From Chloroflexota bacterium (GTDB lineage Bacteria > Chloroflexota > Anaerolineae > J102), in the NCBI GenBank assembly GCA_013151415.1, contig JAADII010000043.1, positions 1 through 50,924 on the forward strand: DNA of 50,924 bases, read 5' to 3'. Below, one piece after another: positions 27,354 to 38,863 of the stretch. The notes below the pieces were generated by a model, which saw only the letters and a program-made list of their open reading frames with translations, did not search any database and was not told the origin of the DNA. Every line of letters starts with the position of its first letter. The stretch's first letter is position 1. Both the position numbers and the translations under genes were made by a program.

Positions 27354-28553
27354 CTATTCACCGCGCAATCGCGGGTCGAAGGCGTCGCGAAGGCCGTCAC
27401 CCAAGAAATTGAAGGCCAACACCGTGAGGGTGAGGGCCACGCTGGGCACGAGCACAGTCCAGGGCGCCGCGCGTAATCCCTGATAGTTTTCTGAGATCAT
27501 ATTCCCCCAACTGGGGCGAGGCGGGTTGATGCCCAGGCCAATGAAGCTGAGAAACGCCTCCAGGAAAATGTAGCCCGGAATGGCCAAAGTTTCGTAGACG
27601 ATGGCCGGGCCGAGAATGTTGGGCAACAGGTGCTGCGAAATGATGCGACGATCGGTGGCGCCGATCGCGCGCGCGGCCTCCACAAATTCCTTTTTCTTGA
27701 CGCTGAGCACCTGGCCACGCGTGATACGAGCCATGCCCAGCCAGTTGAGAAGCCCTAACGCGATAAAGAGAAAGAACATGCCGCCGAAGGCATTGTCGAT
27801 TTCCACCAGACTGGCCATAAAACTGCGACCGGTGCGCATGACCAAAACAATGAACAAGGCGAACGAGAGCACAATGGCTCCGGCCAGAAATATGAAAAGA
27901 TATTGAATTCCGCCGCCATCCTCGCGCCGCGCCAGCATGACGCCGGCCACAACCGCGACCCCAAAGATAAGGGCCACGGCCCAGCCAAACCAGTCTGGCA
28001 AAACAAACTGCCCCGAAACGGTGCTGCTTTGTTGCCTGGCCACGGCTTTGAAATACACTTGCATCAAAATAATGAACACGAGCAGGGGCAGCGCATAGAG
28101 AAAATCGACCAACCGCATCAGCAAGTTATCGATGGCGGGTCGGCTGTAGCCCGATATCAAACCAATGAGCATGCCAACGATCAAGCTTACGGTCGCGCCC
28201 ACAAAGCCCACGGCCAACGAAACCTGAGCGCCGTAAAGCGTGCGGCTGAGAAGATCTCGCCCCAAATAATCCGCACCCAGGATGAAAATCTTACCCTGAT
28301 ATTCTTCGGCTCGGCCCGTATAAGGAGCGCCGGGAGGCGCGAGGTTATCGTAAAGGCTGGTCCGATCATAAGGGAACGGCGCGATGAGATCGGTCACCGG
28401 CGGAATGGCGATGATGATTTCCAAAACGATGAAAACCAAGGCCGCGATCGCGACCTTGTTCTTGAAAAGCTGATTCATCGCGTCGCGCAACGGCGACCGC
28501 GGTTTTCGCGTGGTGAAATCAACCCTGGGAGCGGTGTCAGTAGCTGCTGCCAT
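27354..28553 (-). CDS. ABC transporter permease, OppC/DppC family, with insert
   Basis: 399 residues. Hallmarks are the N-terminal OppC segment (LRDAMNQLFKNKVAIAALVF), GADYLGRDLLSRTLYGAQVS, the EAA loop EAARAIGATDRRIISQHLLP, and FNFLGDGLRDAFDPRLRG at the end. Family members usually have about 300 residues. The extra length is an insert of about 100 residues between the LLVFIILMQVY helix and the LGLLNWLGMARITRGQ region, bearing one to three added hydrophobic helices and a Ser-rich loop. It acts with the adjacent OppB-type permease as the membrane channel. The start at 28553 has GGAG six bases upstream. Last gene of the transporter run. Confidence 0.93.
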   Translation of the reverse strand: MAAATDTAPRVDFTTRKPRSPLRDAMNQLFKNKVAIAALVFIVLEIIIAIPPVTDLIAPFPYDRTSLYDNLAPPGAPYTGRAEEYQGKIFILGADYLGRDLLSRTLYGAQVSLAVGFVGATVSLIVGMLIGLISGYSRPAIDNLLMRLVDFLYALPLLVFIILMQVYFKAVARQQSSTVSGQFVLPDWFGWAVALIFGVAVVAGVMLARREDGGGIQYLFIFLAGAIVLSFALFIVLVMRTGRSFMASLVEIDNAFGGMFFLFIALGLLNWLGMARITRGQVLSVKKKEFVEAARAIGATDRRIISQHLLPNILGPAIVYETLAIPGYIFLEAFLSFIGLGINPPRPSWGNMISENYQGLRAAPWTVLVPSVALTLTVLAFNFLGDGLRDAFDPRLRGE

Positions 28554-28732
28554 ATGCGTCTCCGAAAATGATATAGAAGAATTGCCTGTTACAAGCGGTG
28601 CATGACGAGCGCTGCTGGGCAAAGCCACACGTTCAGGATGAGGGGTGCGTCATACGCGGCGCTCGCCTCTATTCGTGAAGCTCAAACAATGTGCGCCAAG
28701 TCATGCATGGCCAGAAGTTGGGTGGATAAAGC

Positions 28733-29803
28733 CTATTCGAGCCGCACGCGCGGGTCGAGCCAGGCATAGGTGATGTCCACAAGCATGTTGGCGATGACGA
28801 TGGCCACGGCGTAGAGCAAGGTGGTGCCCAAAACCACCGGATAATCGCGATTGCCCACACTGGTCACGAAATGCCGTCCCAAACCTGGAATGGCGAAAAT
28901 CTGTTCAACGACGAAGGTGCCCGTGAGCACGCCGGCAAACATCGGCCCCAAAATGGTGACCACAGGGATGAGGCTGTTCTTTAGAGCGTGCCGCACGATG
29001 ACGGCCCGCTCGCGCAAGCCCTTGGCCCGAGCAGTGCGGATGTAGTCCTCGCGAATCACCTGAAGCAAGCTGCCGCGCGTGAGACGAGCCAAAACGGCCG
29101 AAAGCCCCGTCCCCAATGTCACCACCGGCAAAACCGCATGATGGAAGAAATCAAAGGTTGGCTTGGGAATCAGGTTCACCCACATGGGAACAGGTTCGCC
29201 CGCGGCAATATATTGCTGAGCAATATTTGAAAAGAGGGGTTCGGCCTTCCAGGTGGCCACCGGAAACCAGCCTAACTTAAGAGCAAACACCCATATAAGG
29301 AATGGGCCCAATACGACATTGGAAATGGATACGCCAAGGATGGCGATGAATGTGGCCGAATAATCAAGCGGCGTGTTATGTTTGAGCGCAGCAATAATGC
29401 CAGCCGGAATGCCTATGCCTATGCCCAACAGCATGGCCAAAAAACCCAACTGCATGGAAATCGGCAGGGCGGTGGAAATAATATCGTTCACTGTGCGCCC
29501 GCGGTAGCGAAAAGAGGGGCCCAAATCGCCCAATAAAACGCCCTTGCTGCTCACCCCTTCTTCGCTCCCTTCAGGGCGGCAAATGGCGTCGCCAATCAGG
29601 TAAGAGCAAAACTGCATCCACATGGGATCGTTCAGGTGGTATTTGGCCTCGAGATTCTTCACCACCGCCGGCGGCAAGCTCTTGTCACCCGCAAAATCGA
29701 AGGGCCCGCCCGGAATCGCGCGCACCAAAGCAAAGGTGAAAAAGGTCACCAGCAATAATACAGGGATAGTCCAGATAATGCGTCGAATGACGAATTGTAA
29801 CAT
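28733..29803 (-). CDS. ABC transporter permease, OppB/DppB family
   Basis: 356 residues. MLQFVIRRIIWTIPVLLLVT is the classic OppB start; the EAA loop is TARAKGLRERAVIVRHALKN; the end is YAWLDPRVRLE. An extracytoplasmic segment around residues 45-85 (EAKYHLNDPMWMQF and a Cys-containing loop) is typical. It forms the channel with the OppC-type permease and is fed by a peptide-binding lipoprotein upstream. The intervening 202 bases hold the heptamer array described separately, which probably separates transcript levels of binding protein and permeases. Confidence 0.95.
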   Translation of the reverse strand: MLQFVIRRIIWTIPVLLLVTFFTFALVRAIPGGPFDFAGDKSLPPAVVKNLEAKYHLNDPMWMQFCSYLIGDAICRPEGSEEGVSSKGVLLGDLGPSFRYRGRTVNDIISTALPISMQLGFLAMLLGIGIGIPAGIIAALKHNTPLDYSATFIAILGVSISNVVLGPFLIWVFALKLGWFPVATWKAEPLFSNIAQQYIAAGEPVPMWVNLIPKPTFDFFHHAVLPVVTLGTGLSAVLARLTRGSLLQVIREDYIRTARAKGLRERAVIVRHALKNSLIPVVTILGPMFAGVLTGTFVVEQIFAIPGLGRHFVTSVGNRDYPVVLGTTLLYAVAIVIANMLVDITYAWLDPRVRLE

Positions 29804-30005: not shown

Positions 30006-31886
30006 TTATTGGAGACCCAGGGCCGCCTTCTTGGCTTCCCAATCGATCTTCCAGGTGTAAATGCCAGGAGGTCCCACCGTGCCGTAGGTGCGGTAGGTGA
30101 CCCAAGGCTTGGTCACGCTGACCGAGGTGTAGTAGTAGATGGGAGCCATCGCGGCCGCCTCTTCCACCAGAATCTCCTCGCCGCGCTTGTACAGCGCTTT
30201 GCGCTCTTCAGGATCGGTGGAAGCGCGAGCCTTGCGCATCAGCTCAACGAACTCGTCGTTGGACCAGCGGACGCGGTTGGCGCCGATTTCGGGGTTGAAG
30301 ACCTCGTTCAGCCAGTTGTTCTGATCGGGGTAGTCAGCGCACCAACCCAGGCGGAAGACATGAGGCACCTCCTCGATGGGCGTGTCCTTCTTGATGGTGT
30401 TCAGATACACCTTCCATTCCTGGTTCTCGATGGCCACGTCCACGTTGAGGGCGTCCTTCCACATGGCGGCAATGGCCTGCGCGATGCGGGCGTGACCCTC
30501 AGAGGTGTTGTGCATCAGGGTGATGGTGCCCAGTTCGGAGCCATCGGCATAACCGGCGTCGGCCAGCCAGCCCTTGGCCATTTCGACGGCCGCATCATAG
30601 CCGGTGCCGCCCATGTCCTCGGGCAAGGCCCACGGAGCGATGTCGGGATCCAGGGCCGCGCTGCCGAAGATCATGCTGGGAGCGAAGGTGTTGGCCGGGA
30701 TCTGGCCGCCCTTGGTCACGTTCTCCACAAGGCCTTTGCGGTCGATGGCGGCCGAGAGCGCGCGGCGCACATTGGCGTCATCCACCGGAGCTTTGGTGTT
30801 GATGAAGCCGTAGTAGTAGGTGCAGGGCGCCGTGGTGACGGTGAATTCCTTGCTCAGAACAGGATCGGATTTCACGCGATCGATCTCGTCTGAAGGCACG
30901 CCGGCCACATCCAGGTCGCCCGCCTCATACATGGCGAAAGCGGTGGAGGCCTCGGTGACCATCACATACTGAATCACGTCGAGTTGGACCTCATCCGCAC
31001 CCCACCAGTGAGGGTTCTTGCGGAGTTCCATGCTGTCATCATGAGCCCATTTGCTCAGCACCATGGGGCCGTTGGTCCAAATGATGCCCGGCTCGATCCA
31101 GCGCTCGGCTTTCTCTTCGATCACCTCTTGCGGCATGGGGAACGCGACCCACATGCTGGCGATGGAGGGGAAGTAAGGCGCGGGATCGGCCAACGTGAAC
31201 TTGATGGTGTAGTCATCGATGACTTCCACGCCCAGCGCATCGATCAGCGCCTGAACTTCCTCATCGCTCATCGCGCCCACATCGGCGGTGTTGAGCTCCT
31301 CGCCGCCCTTGATGATGTAGAGCACGTAGGCGTAATCAGAAGCTGTGCGCGGATCCAGGGTGCGGCGCACGCCATAGGCCACATCATTGGCCGTCACCGG
31401 GCGCATCACCTCGATCTCGCCGGTGCCGGTGTTGTACTTCACCCAATTATTGTCCTGGCGCAGCTTGAAGGTGTACTCCGTGCCGTCCTCCGAAACCTCC
31501 CACGATTCGGCCAGGTAGGGAACCGGCTCGTTGGTTTCCGCATCGATCCAGGTGAGACCTGCGAACAGATCACCCAGAACCTGGATGGAGGCCGAGTCGG
31601 TGGCGAGAGCCGGATCCAGAGTCGGAGGCTCGGTGCCCAGGTTCAGGTTAATGGTCACTTCGGTTGCGGGCGGAGGCGTTGGCGTCACCTCGACGACCTT
31701 CTCTTTCTCGACTACGACCGTCTTCTCGACGACCTTTTCCACCTCCTTCTCGACCACGACCGTCTTTTCAACGACCACGGTGACCTCGACGACCTCAGGC
31801 TCGGCCGGCTGCTGGGCGCATGCCGCCAGCGCCAAAAGCGCCACGACAAGAACGAGAACCAGAGCCATCCACTTGTTGCGTGTCAT
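30006..31886 (-). CDS. Peptide ABC transporter substrate-binding lipoprotein (SBP_bac_5)
   Basis: 626 residues. Signal peptide with lipobox LAAC, then a highly charged linker of repeated VVVEK/VVEKEVEK (about residues 32-68), then the two-lobe binding domain in the usual order: TEPPTLDPALA early, GPMVLSKWAHDDSMELRKNP in the middle, NVRRALSAAIDRKGLV later, and ALYKRGEEILVEEAA near the end. It captures oligopeptides or similar ligands outside the membrane. AGGAGGAG precedes the ATG inside a small palindrome (CTCCTAGGAG). It is the third gene of the leftward transporter run, after the two ATPase genes. Confidence 0.96.
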   Translation of the reverse strand: MTRNKWMALVLVLVVALLALAACAQQPAEPEVVEVTVVVEKTVVVEKEVEKVVEKTVVVEKEKVVEVTPTPPPATEVTINLNLGTEPPTLDPALATDSASIQVLGDLFAGLTWIDAETNEPVPYLAESWEVSEDGTEYTFKLRQDNNWVKYNTGTGEIEVMRPVTANDVAYGVRRTLDPRTASDYAYVLYIIKGGEELNTADVGAMSDEEVQALIDALGVEVIDDYTIKFTLADPAPYFPSIASMWVAFPMPQEVIEEKAERWIEPGIIWTNGPMVLSKWAHDDSMELRKNPHWWGADEVQLDVIQYVMVTEASTAFAMYEAGDLDVAGVPSDEIDRVKSDPVLSKEFTVTTAPCTYYYGFINTKAPVDDANVRRALSAAIDRKGLVENVTKGGQIPANTFAPSMIFGSAALDPDIAPWALPEDMGGTGYDAAVEMAKGWLADAGYADGSELGTITLMHNTSEGHARIAQAIAAMWKDALNVDVAIENQEWKVYLNTIKKDTPIEEVPHVFRLGWCADYPDQNNWLNEVFNPEIGANRVRWSNDEFVELMRKARASTDPEERKALYKRGEEILVEEAAAMAPIYYYTSVSVTKPWVTYRTYGTVGPPGIYTWKIDWEAKKAALGLQ

Positions 31887-32149: not shown

Positions 32150-33160
32150 TCAGTACAAATGGCAAGCCACCCAGTGCTCCTGGTCGTCCGCGCCGATGTT
32201 CTTCCATTCGGGATCGACTTCCGCGCAAATGTCCATCACCCGCGGGCAGCGCGTTCGGAAATTGCAGCCCGAAGGCGGATTGATGGGACTTGGCACATCG
32301 CCTTCCAAAATGATGCGCGTGCGCTTCTCCTCGATGTAAGGATCAGGAATGGGCACGGCCGATAAGAGAGCCTGAGTATAGGGGTGTTGGGGGTTCTCGT
32401 AAAGGGTGTCGTAGTCGGTCAATTCCACGATCTTCCCCAAGTACATCACGGCGATGCGATCGGAAATGTATCGCACCATCGAGAGATCGTGGGCGATGAA
32501 AAGATAAGTCAAACCAAACTCGATCTGCAAATCCTTCAACATATTCACGATCTGCGCCTGGATGGAAACATCCAACGCAGAGATCGGCTCATCGCAAACG
32601 ATGAAGTCTGGATTTAGAGCCAATGCTCGAGCCACGCCAATGCGCTGACGCTGCCCGCCGGAAAATTCGTGCGGATAGCGATTGACGAAATAAGGGTTCA
32701 GCCCCACCACGCGCAACAACTCTTGCACGCGCTCCCGCTTTTCTTTGCCTTTGGCAATATTGTGCACCTCCAGAGGTTCGCCAATGATGTTGCCCACGGT
32801 CATGCGGGGATTGAGCGACGCGTACGGATCCTGAAAGATCATTTGCATCCGTCGCCGCTGCTGACGCAAACGCTCTCCCTTCATGGTGGTCAGCTCCTCG
32901 CCCTCAAACTTGACGCTGCCGCCCGTGGGCTTGTATAGCTGCAAAATCGCGCGACCGGTGGTCGACTTGCCGCAACCCGACTCGCCCACCAAACCCAATG
33001 TTTCGCCTCGCTTGATGGTGAAGCTGACGCCATCCACCGCCTTCACATCGGCCACTTTGCGCTGGATAAGAATCCCCTTGGTGACGGGGAAGTACATTTT
33101 CAGATCATTGACTTCGAGGAGGACGTTGTTCTTGCTGTTCTCAGACACGTTGACCTCCAT
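32150..33160 (-). CDS. ABC transporter ATP-binding protein, OppF/DppF family
   Basis: 336 residues. Walker [14 protein letters not shown], signature [15 protein letters not shown], Walker [13 protein letters not shown], switch His in [14 protein letters not shown], and the oligopeptide-transporter C-terminal extension [15 protein letters not shown] with its Cys pattern (possible Fe-S site). It powers the adjacent permeases as a dimer with the OppD-type ATPase. Its start overlaps the end of that gene by 20 bases, which implies coupled translation. Confidence 0.96.
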
Positions 33161-34151
33161 TCTTGGACTGGTCCGCGATCACATCTTCCCAGCGCCAACA
33201 GGCGACTCGATGCAAGGGCGTGACATAATCGGTGGGAGGATCTTCTTCGGTGCAACGATCCACCCTGTAAGAGCAACGCGGGGCGAACGGACACCCCGGC
33301 GGAAGATCGACCAAATCGGGGGGCAAACCCTCGATGGGAATCAATTTCTCATCGTGCCCCTGGTCCAGACGAGGAATGGATTTGAGCAAGCCGAGCGTGT
33401 AGGGATGATGAGGGTTGGCGTATAAGTCGTGCACCTCGGCCTCTTCCACGATCTTGCCCGCATACATCACAATCACCCGATCGGCAATGCCGGCCACCAC
33501 GCCTAAATCATGGGTGATCCAGATAATGGCCATGCCAATCTTTTCGCGCAATCCCTTGACCAGGTCCACAATCTGCGCCTGAATGGTCACATCCAAAGCC
33601 GTTGTGGGCTCATCGGCAATGAGCAATTGCGGGTTGCACGATAACCCCATGGCAATCATCACGCGCTGGCGCATGCCGCCCGAAAACTGGTGGGGATAAT
33701 CGTCCAGGCGTTTCTCCGCTCCCGGAATGCCCACCATCTCCAGCAGTTCAATGGCTCGCTTCCGGGCTTGCTCTTTATCCATGCCCAGATGCAACTGAAG
33801 CGCCTCCATGATCTGAAAGCCGATGGTGAGCACGGGATTGAGCGAGGTCATGGGATCCTGAAAGATCATGGCGATGCGATTGCCGCGCACTTGCCGGATC
33901 TCATCATCGCTCATTTGTAAAAGATCCCTGCCCTCGAACAACACTTCACCTGCCACAATTTTTCCCGGCGGCTGGGGGATAAGCCGAATCAAGGACATGA
34001 CGCCCACGCTTTTGCCGCAACCGCTCTCCCCTACAATGGCCAGTAGTTCGCCCTTATCGAGCTTGTAGGAAATGCCGTTCACAGCCTGAACGACGCCTTC
34101 CTCCGTGAAAAAGTAGGTCTTAAGTCCTTTGACCTCGAGTAATGTGGTCAT
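33141..34151 (-). CDS. ABC transporter ATP-binding protein, OppD/DppD family
   Basis: 336 residues. Walker [13 protein letters not shown], signature [15 protein letters not shown], Walker [13 protein letters not shown], His switch in [13 protein letters not shown], and the C-terminal [14 protein letters not shown] extension. I chose MTTLLEVKG (ATG 34151) because AAGGA stands six bases before it, while it touches the alternative ATG at 34157 directly. The gene opens the leftward ATPase-binding protein-permease order. Two promoter-like pairs lie upstream. Confidence 0.95.
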
Positions 34152-34245
34152 TGCCATTCCTTTTTGCGATGAAGCCAAATTCAATGAAAACCAAACATGA
34201 GCACACGCGACGCTCCTGCAGCGTTGAAGCAGCGTCGGGAAAATC

Positions 34246-34393: not shown

Positions 34394-36349
34394 TCATTTC
34401 GTATAGAGATTCATGTCCACATGCTCCCAAAAGGGCGACGGCAATAGGGTCACATCGATTTCGCCCAAAGAACCCAAATCCCACAAACGCGCCATCTCCA
34501 AATCGCCGATGAGCGCGGGATCGAGGTAATCGATTTCGCCGTTGAGCAAACGCCCTATGGCGGCGTCGGCGTCGGGCGTAAAGAGAAGGGTCACTTTCTC
34601 CAGCGCGGGCGCTGGCTGAAAATAAGGGTTGCGCTCAAACTGCATCATCTCGCCTTTGCGCCATTCGCGCAAAACAAAGGGGCCAATGCTGGGGCGGGCT
34701 TCGGTCAGCTCGGGCGAATCGCGCCATGTTTCGGGCGGCGCATCGGCCAGCAAACGACCGTCGGCCAGCGCCAAATGAGCGGGATAAAGCTCGCGCCAGG
34801 GAGGCAAGAAATAGGTGGGGCTTTGGTAACCGGGCAAGTAGGTGACAACGGCCTCGAGACCGGGGCCAAAAGCGATATCTTGCACCGCGTCGCAGGCCGG
34901 TGAGGGCGCCTGGCTGCACTCGAATGCATAAGCCAGACGGATGTCGGCCGCCTGGCCGGGCCGCCCATCGCTCCACACATAATCTTTGAACAAATAGCGC
35001 ACCGTTAATTGAGGAAGCTCGATCTCAGATGCGCCGTCATATATTTTGGCAACGCCATCGATCAGCAGAGGAACGCCTTTTTCCAAATCGACAGCCTCGC
35101 CCGCGGCCGAGTAAACCCTATCTCCAGCGGCCGTCTTCACCAGGTTGAGCTCGGCCAAGCCATTTTCTAGAGTGGGCAGCGGATCTAGAATGCGAGGCTG
35201 ATAATCATAATCGTATTCAGTCCACAACGCGCCCACCCCGATTTGAGCCGCATGACGGGCCGCGGACGACGTCTCGAGGGCGGTGAGCATCGATGCGGGC
35301 TCTTGCGAAAGGCCGATGGTCACTGTCGCGCGATCATCGATTCGGCGCCACATCTCGATGTTGGCCGTGGGCAATTCGGTGGGATTCGCCCGCACATTCT
35401 GCAAAATGGACCGCCAGGCCATCGCTTCCGCGCGTTGAAACAGGGGAATGGAAACCGCGTCCGCGACGAATCGCTCTTGCAAGGTCTTATATGCCGCAAT
35501 GCGTTGGTCGCGCATCAGCGCGCTGCGCAAGACGCGCAAAGCCTGCTCAGCGCCAGAATCGCACCACCCCATGTAATTTCGACCCCGCCAACCATTCTTG
35601 GGCAGAGGAATCTGCTGACAGCCATAGCGGGCGTACATGTCCGATTCTGGCTGCGCGCGCCAGGCGAATGCGGCCAGCTCGAAATCGCGGCGTTGGAGCC
35701 CGGTTCGCTCGCCAAACCACCAGCCGGCCGGCGTATGTTGCCGCACCAGTTGCACGCCGCATGCTTCGAACTGCGCTTCGAGCGTTTCGGCCCAAATTTG
35801 CCGAAATTGAGCGTCTGTCGTGGTCAGTTTCAACGCCAACACATCGCCGGAAGCGTTCAACCGATAGGGTTCGCCTTGGGCAAGCGTCCAACCGGCCTCG
35901 TCAAGCAGCCTCGCCGCTTCATCGGGATCATAACGAACAAAGTCTTCGTAAGGGCCGCCATAGGCCCAATGCTCTCTGGGCAAGAAACTATCCATTTGCA
36001 AGGCGCGGCCAACGCCCTCATCCAAATATGGATAGACCGCCGCCACCAACGCGTCGCGATCGACGCAGAGCGCCAGCGCGCGGCGCACCCGCGCATCGCC
36101 CAAAATGGGGTGCGGTTGGCTAAAGGGCTCAGGGGTCGCCTCCACAATGACGGTCTCTCGCACCACTTTCTCCACCACCACCGTTCTTTCCACCTCGACC
36201 GTCACCTCTCGCACTTGAATTTCGGGCTTGGGCGTAGGCGAGGCGCAAGCCGCCAAAGCCAAACCCACCAAAAGATAAAGGCCAACGAGCAAATGGCTGC
36301 GCGTGTTATGCGTGTCAGACATGCGTATTTTTCTCATCAGTGATGGCAT
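34394..36349 (-). CDS. Solute-binding lipoprotein with circularly permuted SBP_bac_5 fold
   Basis: 651 residues. Signal peptide with lipobox LAAC (Cys near 35) and a charged VVVEK-type linker, then the binding domain, but with halves swapped. DARVRRALALCVDRDALV (about 85) and YKTLQERFVADAVSIPLF (about 300), normally late elements, come first. VTIGLSQEPASMLTAL (about 342), GPFVLREWRKGEMMQFERNP and LLNGEIDYLD, normally early, follow, and the chain stops at HVDMNLYTK, which usually precedes the VRRAL element. The other binding protein in the window (30006-31886) has the normal order. The gene begins six bases after the guanylyltransferase stop and may be read with it. Ligand unknown. Confidence 0.88.
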   Translation of the reverse strand: MPSLMRKIRMSDTHNTRSHLLVGLYLLVGLALAACASPTPKPEIQVREVTVEVERTVVVEKVVRETVIVEATPEPFSQPHPILGDARVRRALALCVDRDALVAAVYPYLDEGVGRALQMDSFLPREHWAYGGPYEDFVRYDPDEAARLLDEAGWTLAQGEPYRLNASGDVLALKLTTTDAQFRQIWAETLEAQFEACGVQLVRQHTPAGWWFGERTGLQRRDFELAAFAWRAQPESDMYARYGCQQIPLPKNGWRGRNYMGWCDSGAEQALRVLRSALMRDQRIAAYKTLQERFVADAVSIPLFQRAEAMAWRSILQNVRANPTELPTANIEMWRRIDDRATVTIGLSQEPASMLTALETSSAARHAAQIGVGALWTEYDYDYQPRILDPLPTLENGLAELNLVKTAAGDRVYSAAGEAVDLEKGVPLLIDGVAKIYDGASEIELPQLTVRYLFKDYVWSDGRPGQAADIRLAYAFECSQAPSPACDAVQDIAFGPGLEAVVTYLPGYQSPTYFLPPWRELYPAHLALADGRLLADAPPETWRDSPELTEARPSIGPFVLREWRKGEMMQFERNPYFQPAPALEKVTLLFTPDADAAIGRLLNGEIDYLDPALIGDLEMARLWDLGSLGEIDVTLLPSPFWEHVDMNLYTK

Positions 36350-36355
36350 GGCGAT

Positions 36356-38863
36356 TCAGTGTTTCAAACTCTCGAGCCAGGCCGCTTTTTCTTCGAGCAG
36401 CGCCTGGGCCTGTCGCCGAGTGGGCGCTTCCACGCAAAGGTGGAGCAACGGTCGGTCGGGGTCGGGCCGCACATGCATCCAGGATTCGTCATCGAAAAAG
36501 ACTTTCACGCCGTCCGTGGCGTCCACAGGGCGTCCGTCGGCCCATTCATTCACCAAACGCATAACGCGGCCTTTGGCGTCTAGGGTGCAGCTTACGGTGC
36601 GACATTGCCAATAAAATGGCGGAATATCGGCCAGCACGTCGGAGAGGCGCACATGATGATGAGCCAGGCATTGCAAAAGGCTGGCCAACGCAAACATGCC
36701 GTCGGGCACAGGATGAAGCGCGGGCAGGATGAAATGGCCTTTGCCATCCACGGCCAAAGTCACATCCTCTCGCGCGGCCATGCTCATGAGGGCGTGCAAA
36801 TCCACCTTAGTGCGAATGACCCGCCCGGAGCGTCGGGCCGCGAGGCGCTCGAAGACCGAAGGCAGTTCGACCGATACGGCCACGGTGGCCTCGGGCCAAT
36901 TGCGCCAGGCCAATTCGGCCAGCGCGGCCGCGGCCAACGAATCGCTCACTCGCCGCCCCAAATCGTCCACCAAAAAGACCTGACTCCCGCTCACATCAAG
37001 ACGAGCGCCCAGATCAAGCTCCATTGCAGCCACCACCTTGGTAAGCAACGTCATTCCGCGCTCCCATTCTTCGGGCAACACCGAGAGCTTTTGCGGGTTG
37101 ATGGTGGTGTTCAGGGCCAGCGCATCCACGCCTAGCTCGGTTAAAATCGGCTCCAACACATTGACGGTGGTGGCGTGCGCATAATCCACAGCAATGTGAA
37201 AGCCCGCATCGCGCAGTTGGTCGCGATCGAGCGCCTGCATAAAGGCGCGAATATACGTCTTTCGCTCTTCGGGAAAGTAGGAAATCGCGCCGATATCGTC
37301 CAATTGGGCGCGACGAAAATCTTCGCGAAAGAAGAGACGCTCGATCTCGCGCTCTTTGGCGCGCCCCAGGTTCATGCCGTCTTCATCCATGAACCGGATA
37401 TCGACCACGCGCCGATCGAAGGGCGAGATGCGCACATGCACCCCCGCTTTGGCCTCGGTGGTCCGAGTTAGATACCGAGCCACAGGAATGGGTTCGGCTC
37501 GCAAGTCCCACACATTGACGCCCGCCGCCGGCAAACCGGAAATGATGGCGCGCTTGATCATGCGCGAGGTGGGATGCCAATCGCGATTAATGGTCACATA
37601 GCTGCCTTTGGGCAGGCTGGCTCCAAACGCCACCCCCAATTTGGCTGCAAATTCGGGCGTCAGGTCCACATTGACTACGCCGGTCACGCCAAAACGGGTG
37701 AACAGCACGCGCCGACCATGAGAGCCCCAAACAATGCTTTCGCGAATAATGGCTCCGGCGTCGATCTCTTTGCCGGGCCATAATTTTACATTGGGGCTAA
37801 TGACAGCGCCTTCGCCAATGATGCATCGATCACCGATCATCGCGCCCTCTTGCACAAACACGCGACGTTTGAACACGCATTGTCGGCAGATCAATGCCCC
37901 GTTAAGCTGCGTGTCTTCGCCCACATAACACCCGCGCCAAATAACCGAGCGAGAGATTTGGGCGCGATTGTCGATAACCGTGTCATCGCGAATGACGGTG
38001 GGGCCCTGGATGACAACCCCGCCCTTGATCTGCACATTATGTCCCAAATAGATGGGGCCATAAAGCCGCGCGTCGGGCGCGATCTCTACATTTTCGCCCA
38101 CCCAAATGTCGCCGCCAATGGGTTTGCCCAAAGGCTCGTGTTGCACGCGATTGTAGAGCACATCGCCGTTGGCCTGAAGATAGGTGGCGGGCGAGCCGAT
38201 ATCGCACCAATAGCCCCCAATATCGCAACCAAACACGCGGCGACCCTCCGCCATGAGTTGCGGAAAAAGGTCATGGCTGAAATCGAAGGCGGTGTGAGGC
38301 GGAATCCGTTTGAGCACCGAAGCCTCGAGCGCATAAACGCCTGTGTTCACCAGATCGCTCACCACATCGCCCCAGCCGGGCTTTTCGATGAAGCGCGTGA
38401 TTCGTCCATCGGCCTCGGTGATCACCATGCCATATTCCAGCGGATCGCTCACCCGATGCAAAGCCACAGTCACATCGGCTGCGCGGCTGCGGTGAAACTC
38501 GAGCAAGGCGGCGATATCAATATCGGTGAGCGCGTCGCCGCTGACCACCAAGATGGTTTCGGTTTCATCCACAAGCCCCGCCCTAAGTGCGTTGGCCACC
38601 CCGCCCGCGGTGCCCAAAGGCACATCTTCTATCAAATAATCGAAACGAACGCCGATATTCGCGCCGCCCGGCAAGTAATTTTGAAACCATTCGGCTTTGT
38701 GCTGAAGGGTGAGGATCATGTGATGCAGCCGATGCCGTTTGAGCCAGTCAACAATATGGCCGATCACCGGCTTGTTGACCAGCGGCATCAATGGTTTGGG
38801 GCGATTGACGGTGAGAGGCCGCAGGCGCGTGCCCTGCCCGCCGGCCATGATCACGGCTTTCAT
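36356..38863 (-). CDS. Mannose-1-phosphate guanylyltransferase fused to degenerate phosphomannomutase
   Basis: 835 residues. N-terminal nucleotidyltransferase MAGGQGTRLRPLT with PKPLMPLVNKP, then left-handed beta-helix hexapeptide repeats (about 250-375), then a phosphohexomutase-like part (about 380-835). The transferase part should activate a sugar-1-phosphate, GDP-mannose being the usual product of this type. In the mutase part the phosphoserine loop TASHNP is replaced (GVHVRISPFDRRVV) and the metal loop DGDxDR reads DVSGSQVFLVDD; a closing VRPDPDRP replaces the phosphate-binding RPSGTEP. So that half is likely non-catalytic and may serve in allostery or assembly. An intact mutase is encoded divergently next door. 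Confidence 0.92.
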   Translation of the reverse strand: MKAVIMAGGQGTRLRPLTVNRPKPLMPLVNKPVIGHIVDWLKRHRLHHMILTLQHKAEWFQNYLPGGANIGVRFDYLIEDVPLGTAGGVANALRAGLVDETETILVVSGDALTDIDIAALLEFHRSRAADVTVALHRVSDPLEYGMVITEADGRITRFIEKPGWGDVVSDLVNTGVYALEASVLKRIPPHTAFDFSHDLFPQLMAEGRRVFGCDIGGYWCDIGSPATYLQANGDVLYNRVQHEPLGKPIGGDIWVGENVEIAPDARLYGPIYLGHNVQIKGGVVIQGPTVIRDDTVIDNRAQISRSVIWRGCYVGEDTQLNGALICRQCVFKRRVFVQEGAMIGDRCIIGEGAVISPNVKLWPGKEIDAGAIIRESIVWGSHGRRVLFTRFGVTGVVNVDLTPEFAAKLGVAFGASLPKGSYVTINRDWHPTSRMIKRAIISGLPAAGVNVWDLRAEPIPVARYLTRTTEAKAGVHVRISPFDRRVVDIRFMDEDGMNLGRAKEREIERLFFREDFRRAQLDDIGAISYFPEERKTYIRAFMQALDRDQLRDAGFHIAVDYAHATTVNVLEPILTELGVDALALNTTINPQKLSVLPEEWERGMTLLTKVVAAMELDLGARLDVSGSQVFLVDDLGRRVSDSLAAAALAELAWRNWPEATVAVSVELPSVFERLAARRSGRVIRTKVDLHALMSMAAREDVTLAVDGKGHFILPALHPVPDGMFALASLLQCLAHHHVRLSDVLADIPPFYWQCRTVSCTLDAKGRVMRLVNEWADGRPVDATDGVKVFFDDESWMHVRPDPDRPLLHLCVEAPTRRQAQALLEEKAAWLESLKH

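Follow-up and report, generated by a model that had tools for sequence, protein, structure and literature searches.

A circularly permuted family-5 solute-binding lipoprotein and its relatives in Chloroflexota

The protein encoded at 34394-36349 on the reverse strand of a 50,924-nucleotide contig from a Chloroflexota bacterium (the whole stretch that we analyzed, hereafter "the window") is, judged by sequence comparison, a family-5 solute-binding protein that has been cleanly circularly permuted, with a match to that family that lies far beyond chance. It is not a one-off but a diverged member of a phylum-level family of single origin. We hold with high confidence that the window protein belongs to a permuted branch of the family-5 (cluster C, OppA/DppA-like) lipoproteins, that it adopts a clamshell fold, and that its counterparts act as the binder of an Opp importer in most relatives.

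Order of segments in the window protein

The reading frame at 34394-36349 was intact and encodes 651 amino acids. We compared the protein with a reference profile of 20 ordinary-order Chloroflexota relatives (645 positions) and found that it aligned in three blocks: residues 16-77 on profile positions 12-70, residues 82-334 on positions 393-641 (i-E 5e-58), and residues 341-649 on positions 77-384 (i-E 4e-55). Only ~14 positions of the profile, all in loops, were absent. The N-terminal region (residues 1-77; 36119-36349, on the reverse strand like all features of the window given below) carries a signal peptide, a lipobox (LALAAC, with Cys35), and a VEVERTVVVEKVVRE linker. It is followed by what is canonically the second half of the protein (35348-36106), which comprises lobe III together with the returning hinge strand and the C-terminal portion of lobe I. 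A short seam (residues 335-340; 35330-35347), placed by the profile and modeled with a pLDDT of ~97, connects the former C-terminus with the former N-terminus of the mature chain: the usual end of the chain (..IAEWEKG), a few residues, and the usual mature start (GADTLIIG..). The canonical first half then comes second (34403-35329), with lobes I and II and, as the outgoing hinge strand, FWEHVDMNL; both halves were matched by profile as well as by structure. The new C-terminus and the stop codon (34394-34402) lie where ordinary relatives have the loop that leads from hinge strand 1 into the VRRAL helix.

Domain searches gave the same picture. SBP_bac_5 (PF00496) was the sole Pfam family above its cut-off, matching the window protein in two stretches (E 3.1e-33; 115.8 bits against a cut-off of 32.4) and likewise matching all 75 of 75 aligned family members. 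The best stretch, residues 78-240, corresponded to the end of the Pfam profile (positions 208-356 of 368). A phmmer comparison with AppA (1xoc) placed query residues 547-610 on chain residues 176-241 and query residues 78-334 on chain residues 273-516, i.e., in swapped order, each with an i-E of ~1e-6. All segments of SBP_bac_5 are present by the profile, and Pfam, phmmer, and the profile alike show that they lack the usual linear order. With the second half running ahead of the first, the window protein is a permuted offshoot rather than an ordinary SBP_bac_5 member. A collinear reading of the whole chain was ruled out, none being returned by Pfam, by phmmer against the PDB, or by the ordinary-order profile. 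The NCBIfam models all scored far below their cut-offs for the permuted protein, and the PDB sequence matches were ordinary-order chains, matched piecewise, with no solved structure of a permuted member among them.

These results bear out the sequence-only reading of this DNA, which had proposed a circular permutation by comparison with the neighboring binding protein at 30006-31886. That neighbor, an SBP_bac_5 lipoprotein by Pfam, does have the normal order (residues 120-532 collinear with Pfam positions 1-363). The proposed retention of signal peptide, lipobox, and linker agrees with the first profile block, and the new ends do fall in a single loop, as had been supposed. The motif positions given there were right except for YKTLQERF, which starts at residue 287 and not at about 300.

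The break point sits between the motifs WEHxDFN and PHPxLxD-VRQA, where ordinary sisters carry a loop, e.g., WEHMDFNTLARTNKDSKERKAPHPLLGDKTVRQA. Permuted proteins end on WEHIDMNLFTK and start their swapped part with TTPHPILSDxRVRQA. Most of them also retain a lipobox pattern (83 of the 87 permuted open reading frames with an untruncated N-terminus). The likeness to the known cluster C proteins (AppA 1xoc, DppA, NikA, OppA) extends over the whole length, with all segments, signal peptide, and lipobox, as well as to the Opp-type permease genes that adjoin most permuted relatives. The differences are that the permuted proteins are reordered, that a hinge strand has become terminal, and that the lipid anchor has been moved by the swap from lobe I to lobe III.

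Operon context, the window copy, and unusual relatives

In most relatives, the permuted protein probably serves a dedicated Opp-type importer as its binding protein, because the permease genes lie right behind the permuted gene. oppB was the next gene in 65 of the 71 relatives with enough downstream sequence, and the order oppB-oppC-oppD-oppF was found in 46 of the 52 in which it could be tested. In these organisms, the protein would bind an Opp-type substrate (a peptide, metal chelate, or sugar) and pass it on to the adjacent OppBCDF.

The opp genes around the window copy belong to an ordinary system. They comprise oppD (33141-34157, with a likely ATG start at 34157), oppF (32150-33160), oppB (28733-29803), and oppC (27354-28628), the last three assigned by Pfam and by identity comparison. 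The window oppD shared 68-74% identity with its counterparts in ordinary systems versus 53-56% with those in permuted operons, and the window oppB was 57% identical to an ordinary-system oppB versus ~31% to the permuted type. From these identities, we assign the genes to an ordinary system whose own binder is the protein at 30006-31886. On its other side, the permuted gene starts seven bases downstream of 36356-38863 (reverse strand), a fused mannose-1-phosphate guanylyltransferase/phosphomannomutase-like gene with a nucleotidyltransferase, hexapeptide repeats, and a phosphomannomutase-like part; the same pair of genes also occurs in one other genome (G003).

Within the window lineage, the dedicated permease appears to be gone and the protein has diverged. 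Its part in transport is doubtful; it may act as an accessory binder of the neighboring Opp system, or have taken on or be moving toward a new role. It could instead be an orphan, decaying or repurposed, with no importer left to serve, an alternative to which we give slightly less than an even chance. In its favor, a permuted-type oppB was not found in the window genome (best match 43% over part of the chain), the adjoining genes belong to the ordinary system, and the 236 bases that separate the permuted gene from oppD contain a promoter-like site. Among the 75 aligned members, the window copy and one relative (L053) had also diverged most: the window copy sits on a long branch (0.58-0.61, versus mostly 0.1-0.3) and keeps 98 of 113 near-invariant residues (87%), compared with 74% for L053 and 99% for the median member. 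Seven of its 15 losses fall within residues 226-241, which, through the alignment to DppA, we take to be a stretch near the ligand. On the other hand, the 651-codon frame, the lipobox, and the linker are intact, and L053, which shows the same layout without a family-type permease, has an intact frame as well, which together suggest selection. Binding proteins may share a permease, and the genome that appears to lack the family-type oppB is 98% complete but not closed.

Among the other relatives, we observed several departures from the common architecture. One gene (L171:1006-2250, reverse strand, 415 amino acids, in the single-contig genome G400) encodes a single-lobe derivative with one lobe III, and another (L168:5248-7554, forward strand, 769 amino acids, in G324) carries two lobe III copies in tandem. 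In both, the returning hinge strand (PLFLR) is fused directly to the outgoing one (WEHIDFNL), lobes I and II are deleted, and a new beta-rich C-terminal domain follows, whose tail reads, for example, VFLPMVMR. It would be odd for half binding proteins to stand free on the cell surface. Three Chloroflexus members (L066:7752-10217, L077:5603-8185, and L179) are permuted, lack a lipobox, and have no Opp genes in the flanks examined. Their chains are extended by a C-terminal domain of the same kind, which ends in LYLPIINR or LYLPLLHR and for which no Pfam match was obtained; the new C-terminus evidently tolerates fusion. In the single-contig genome G468, the permuted gene (L180:1204-3244) is split over two frames (480 + 210 codons) by an apparent frameshift in a copy that is otherwise well conserved and operon-type, which reflects either a sequencing error or a recent inactivation. 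Lastly, a tandem pair of ordinary family-5 binding proteins (L037:13011-17408, in G003) lies behind a permuted gene and oppDF.

Predicted fold

We modeled residues 74-651 with AlphaFold2, using 75 family members as input, and obtained a compact single unit with a mean pLDDT of 95.1 and a pTM of 0.91, free of low-confidence stretches even at the seam. With VIA-align 2, a sequential aligner, the two halves were superposed on AppA separately. Model residues 5-265 matched 1xoc residues 273-520 (Z 24.1 over 243 residues), and the second half, folded alone (pLDDT 92.8), matched 1xoc residues 21-320 (Z 20.4 over 244 residues); these ranges are complementary parts of one chain. The behavior of the new C-terminal end depended on the rest of the protein. 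In the second half folded alone, the last 12 residues (FWEHVDMNLYTK) had a pLDDT of only ~40-50, whereas in the whole chain the same end formed a confident strand (model residues 558-573, pLDDT 93-95). We read this ordering, seen in the whole chain only, as pairing of the last strand with the first half, as in an ordinary hinge.

The model accordingly predicts a closed chain with the usual clamshell of two lobes plus the extra cluster C domain. Both hinge strands are predicted to be present, the last one (FWEHVDMNL) as a free end that returns to pair with the first half. The earlier expectation that a closed domain could still form, and not two half-domains, agrees with this prediction. A memory of the family could favor the known fold in AlphaFold2, although the permuted order is unlikely to have been in the training set.

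We consider it improbable that the swap, while real, yields a domain-swapped dimer or two loosely tied half-domains in place of one clamshell. Such an arrangement could be imagined since one hinge crossing is no longer covalent; moreover, C-half constructs of ~257 residues have been crystallized (3lvu, 3pam), relatives reduced to the first lobe exist, and a swapped dimer would be compatible with the AlphaFold2 monomer model. The high single-chain pTM, the ordered seam, and the last strand that becomes ordered in the whole chain only argue for the single clamshell.

Origin, distribution, and meaning of the permuted family

To place the swap, we computed trees of permuted and ordinary-order proteins for the C-half, the N-half, and both halves joined. 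In each of the three trees, the permuted proteins formed one side of a single branch with a support of 100. The C-half tree put three ordinary-order proteins (L132 in G044, L133 in G289, and L134 in G319) nearest to them, in a joint group with a support of 98, and the joined tree agreed on these nearest relatives (support 95). The three are closest in both halves, are lipoproteins, and share the WEHxDFN and PHPxLxD motifs, but their order is the ordinary one, and a loop of ~14-17 residues occupies the site at which both ends of the permuted proteins lie. The swap thus most likely happened a single time, starting from an ordinary-order protein, and most likely before the family spread within Anaerolineae and Chloroflexia, unless the family spread by transfer. 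That the protein is instead a chimera, with its halves drawn from two different binding proteins, is quite improbable, more so than the swapped dimer: the very nearest ordinary group was less firmly resolved in the N-half tree than in the C-half tree, yet in both half trees the permuted clade fell into one and the same region, near L133 and L134, the joined tree was well supported, and in the profile comparison the two halves together supplied every segment once, with no overlap.

We envision that the permutation from one ordinary-order gene would have begun with a tandem duplication. The first N-half would then have been lost from within the gene, leaving the export signal and the linker, and the C-half of the first copy would have been fused to the N-half of the second copy, with loss of the stop codon, the spacer, and the second signal peptide between the copies; the final C-half would have been removed last. 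The sequence-only reading had suggested duplication followed by loss of the outer halves. The duplication is still something that we infer, no duplication intermediate having been found, and loss of the outer halves alone is too simple: the first copy retained its signal peptide and linker, which are the family's own, so its first half must have been lost internally.

Homologues with the same order, which the sequence-only reading had suggested looking for, turned out to form a phylum-level family in Chloroflexota. A search of 60 relatives gave collinear homologues of the permuted protein in six genomes (39-50% identity) as well as pieces at contig ends in further genomes. The window protein as a single-sequence query found no match in the genome contigs, since this copy has diverged at the pattern positions, but the family was recovered when 84,980 species genomes were scanned with a profile. 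This GTDB scan, which also covered phyla outside Chloroflexota, yielded 161 relatives, the best 80 of which were all Chloroflexota (Caldilineales, Anaerolineales, Thermoflexales, Chloroflexaceae, Oscillochloridaceae, and Roseiflexaceae). A scan of viral contigs revealed no permuted family member. Among 151 Chloroflexota genomes drawn evenly, 14 had a full-length permuted match, all in Anaerolineae and Chloroflexia according to kinship codes, with no intermediate scores at the cut-off used. Aligned to the ordinary profile, 88 of the 92 permuted sequences, counting that of the window, showed the swapped order, and 84 open reading frames ended exactly four residues past WEHxDxN. Carriers include the isolates Chloroflexus islandicus, Oscillochloris sp. 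ZM17-4, and Candidatus Chloroploca asiatica, as well as single-contig genomes. An assembly or annotation artefact that fused two half genes, a misassembled junction being among the findings that the sequence-only reading had named as able to undo its claim, can be dismissed for practical purposes even though the window comes from a draft genome of 197 contigs, because the same seam and end recur in 97 open reading frames (91 distinct) from many independent assemblies, isolates and single-contig genomes among them.

An open-access literature search found no permuted family-5 binding protein, which does not prove novelty, and one relevant case of natural permutation among solute-binding proteins. 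TpMglB-2 (Tp0684) of Treponema pallidum, assigned to "Cluster Bc", is a naturally permuted, lipid-anchored binder of an ABC importer, for which glucose binding and closure were demonstrated and for which the permutation was proposed to be an adaptation to anchoring (PMC4990184). A permuted binding protein can therefore bind and close. The family described here resembles TpMglB-2 in its natural circular permutation and its lipid anchor, but it is an independent case: TpMglB-2 has the Type I/cluster B sugar-binding fold, is cut in the N lobe with a fourth crossover added, and has a permuted part that poorly matches its counterpart, whereas the present proteins belong to SBP_bac_5, are cut in the loop between lobes I and III, have clearly homologous segments throughout, and have a known ordinary-order sister. 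Since the sisters of ordinary order are likewise lipoproteins and have a linker of this kind, anchoring itself cannot explain the swap in this family; which lobe bears the anchor could be the reason.

Few natural permutations have a known ordinary-order sister, an origin that is single and datable, and both break point and operon conserved, and domain databases hide this one by displaying two SBP_bac_5 fragments. We see an even chance that these proteins make up an undescribed, ancient class within cluster C ("cluster Cc") that was permuted once and serves dedicated Opp importers in Anaerolineae and Chloroflexia, in which the tether would pull on lobe III and the free hinge strand would alter the coupling between closing and delivery, and which would also have been the source of the single-lobe surface proteins. 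The natural before-and-after pairs in this family allow one to ask how moving the anchor and cutting a hinge strand affect a Venus-flytrap binder.
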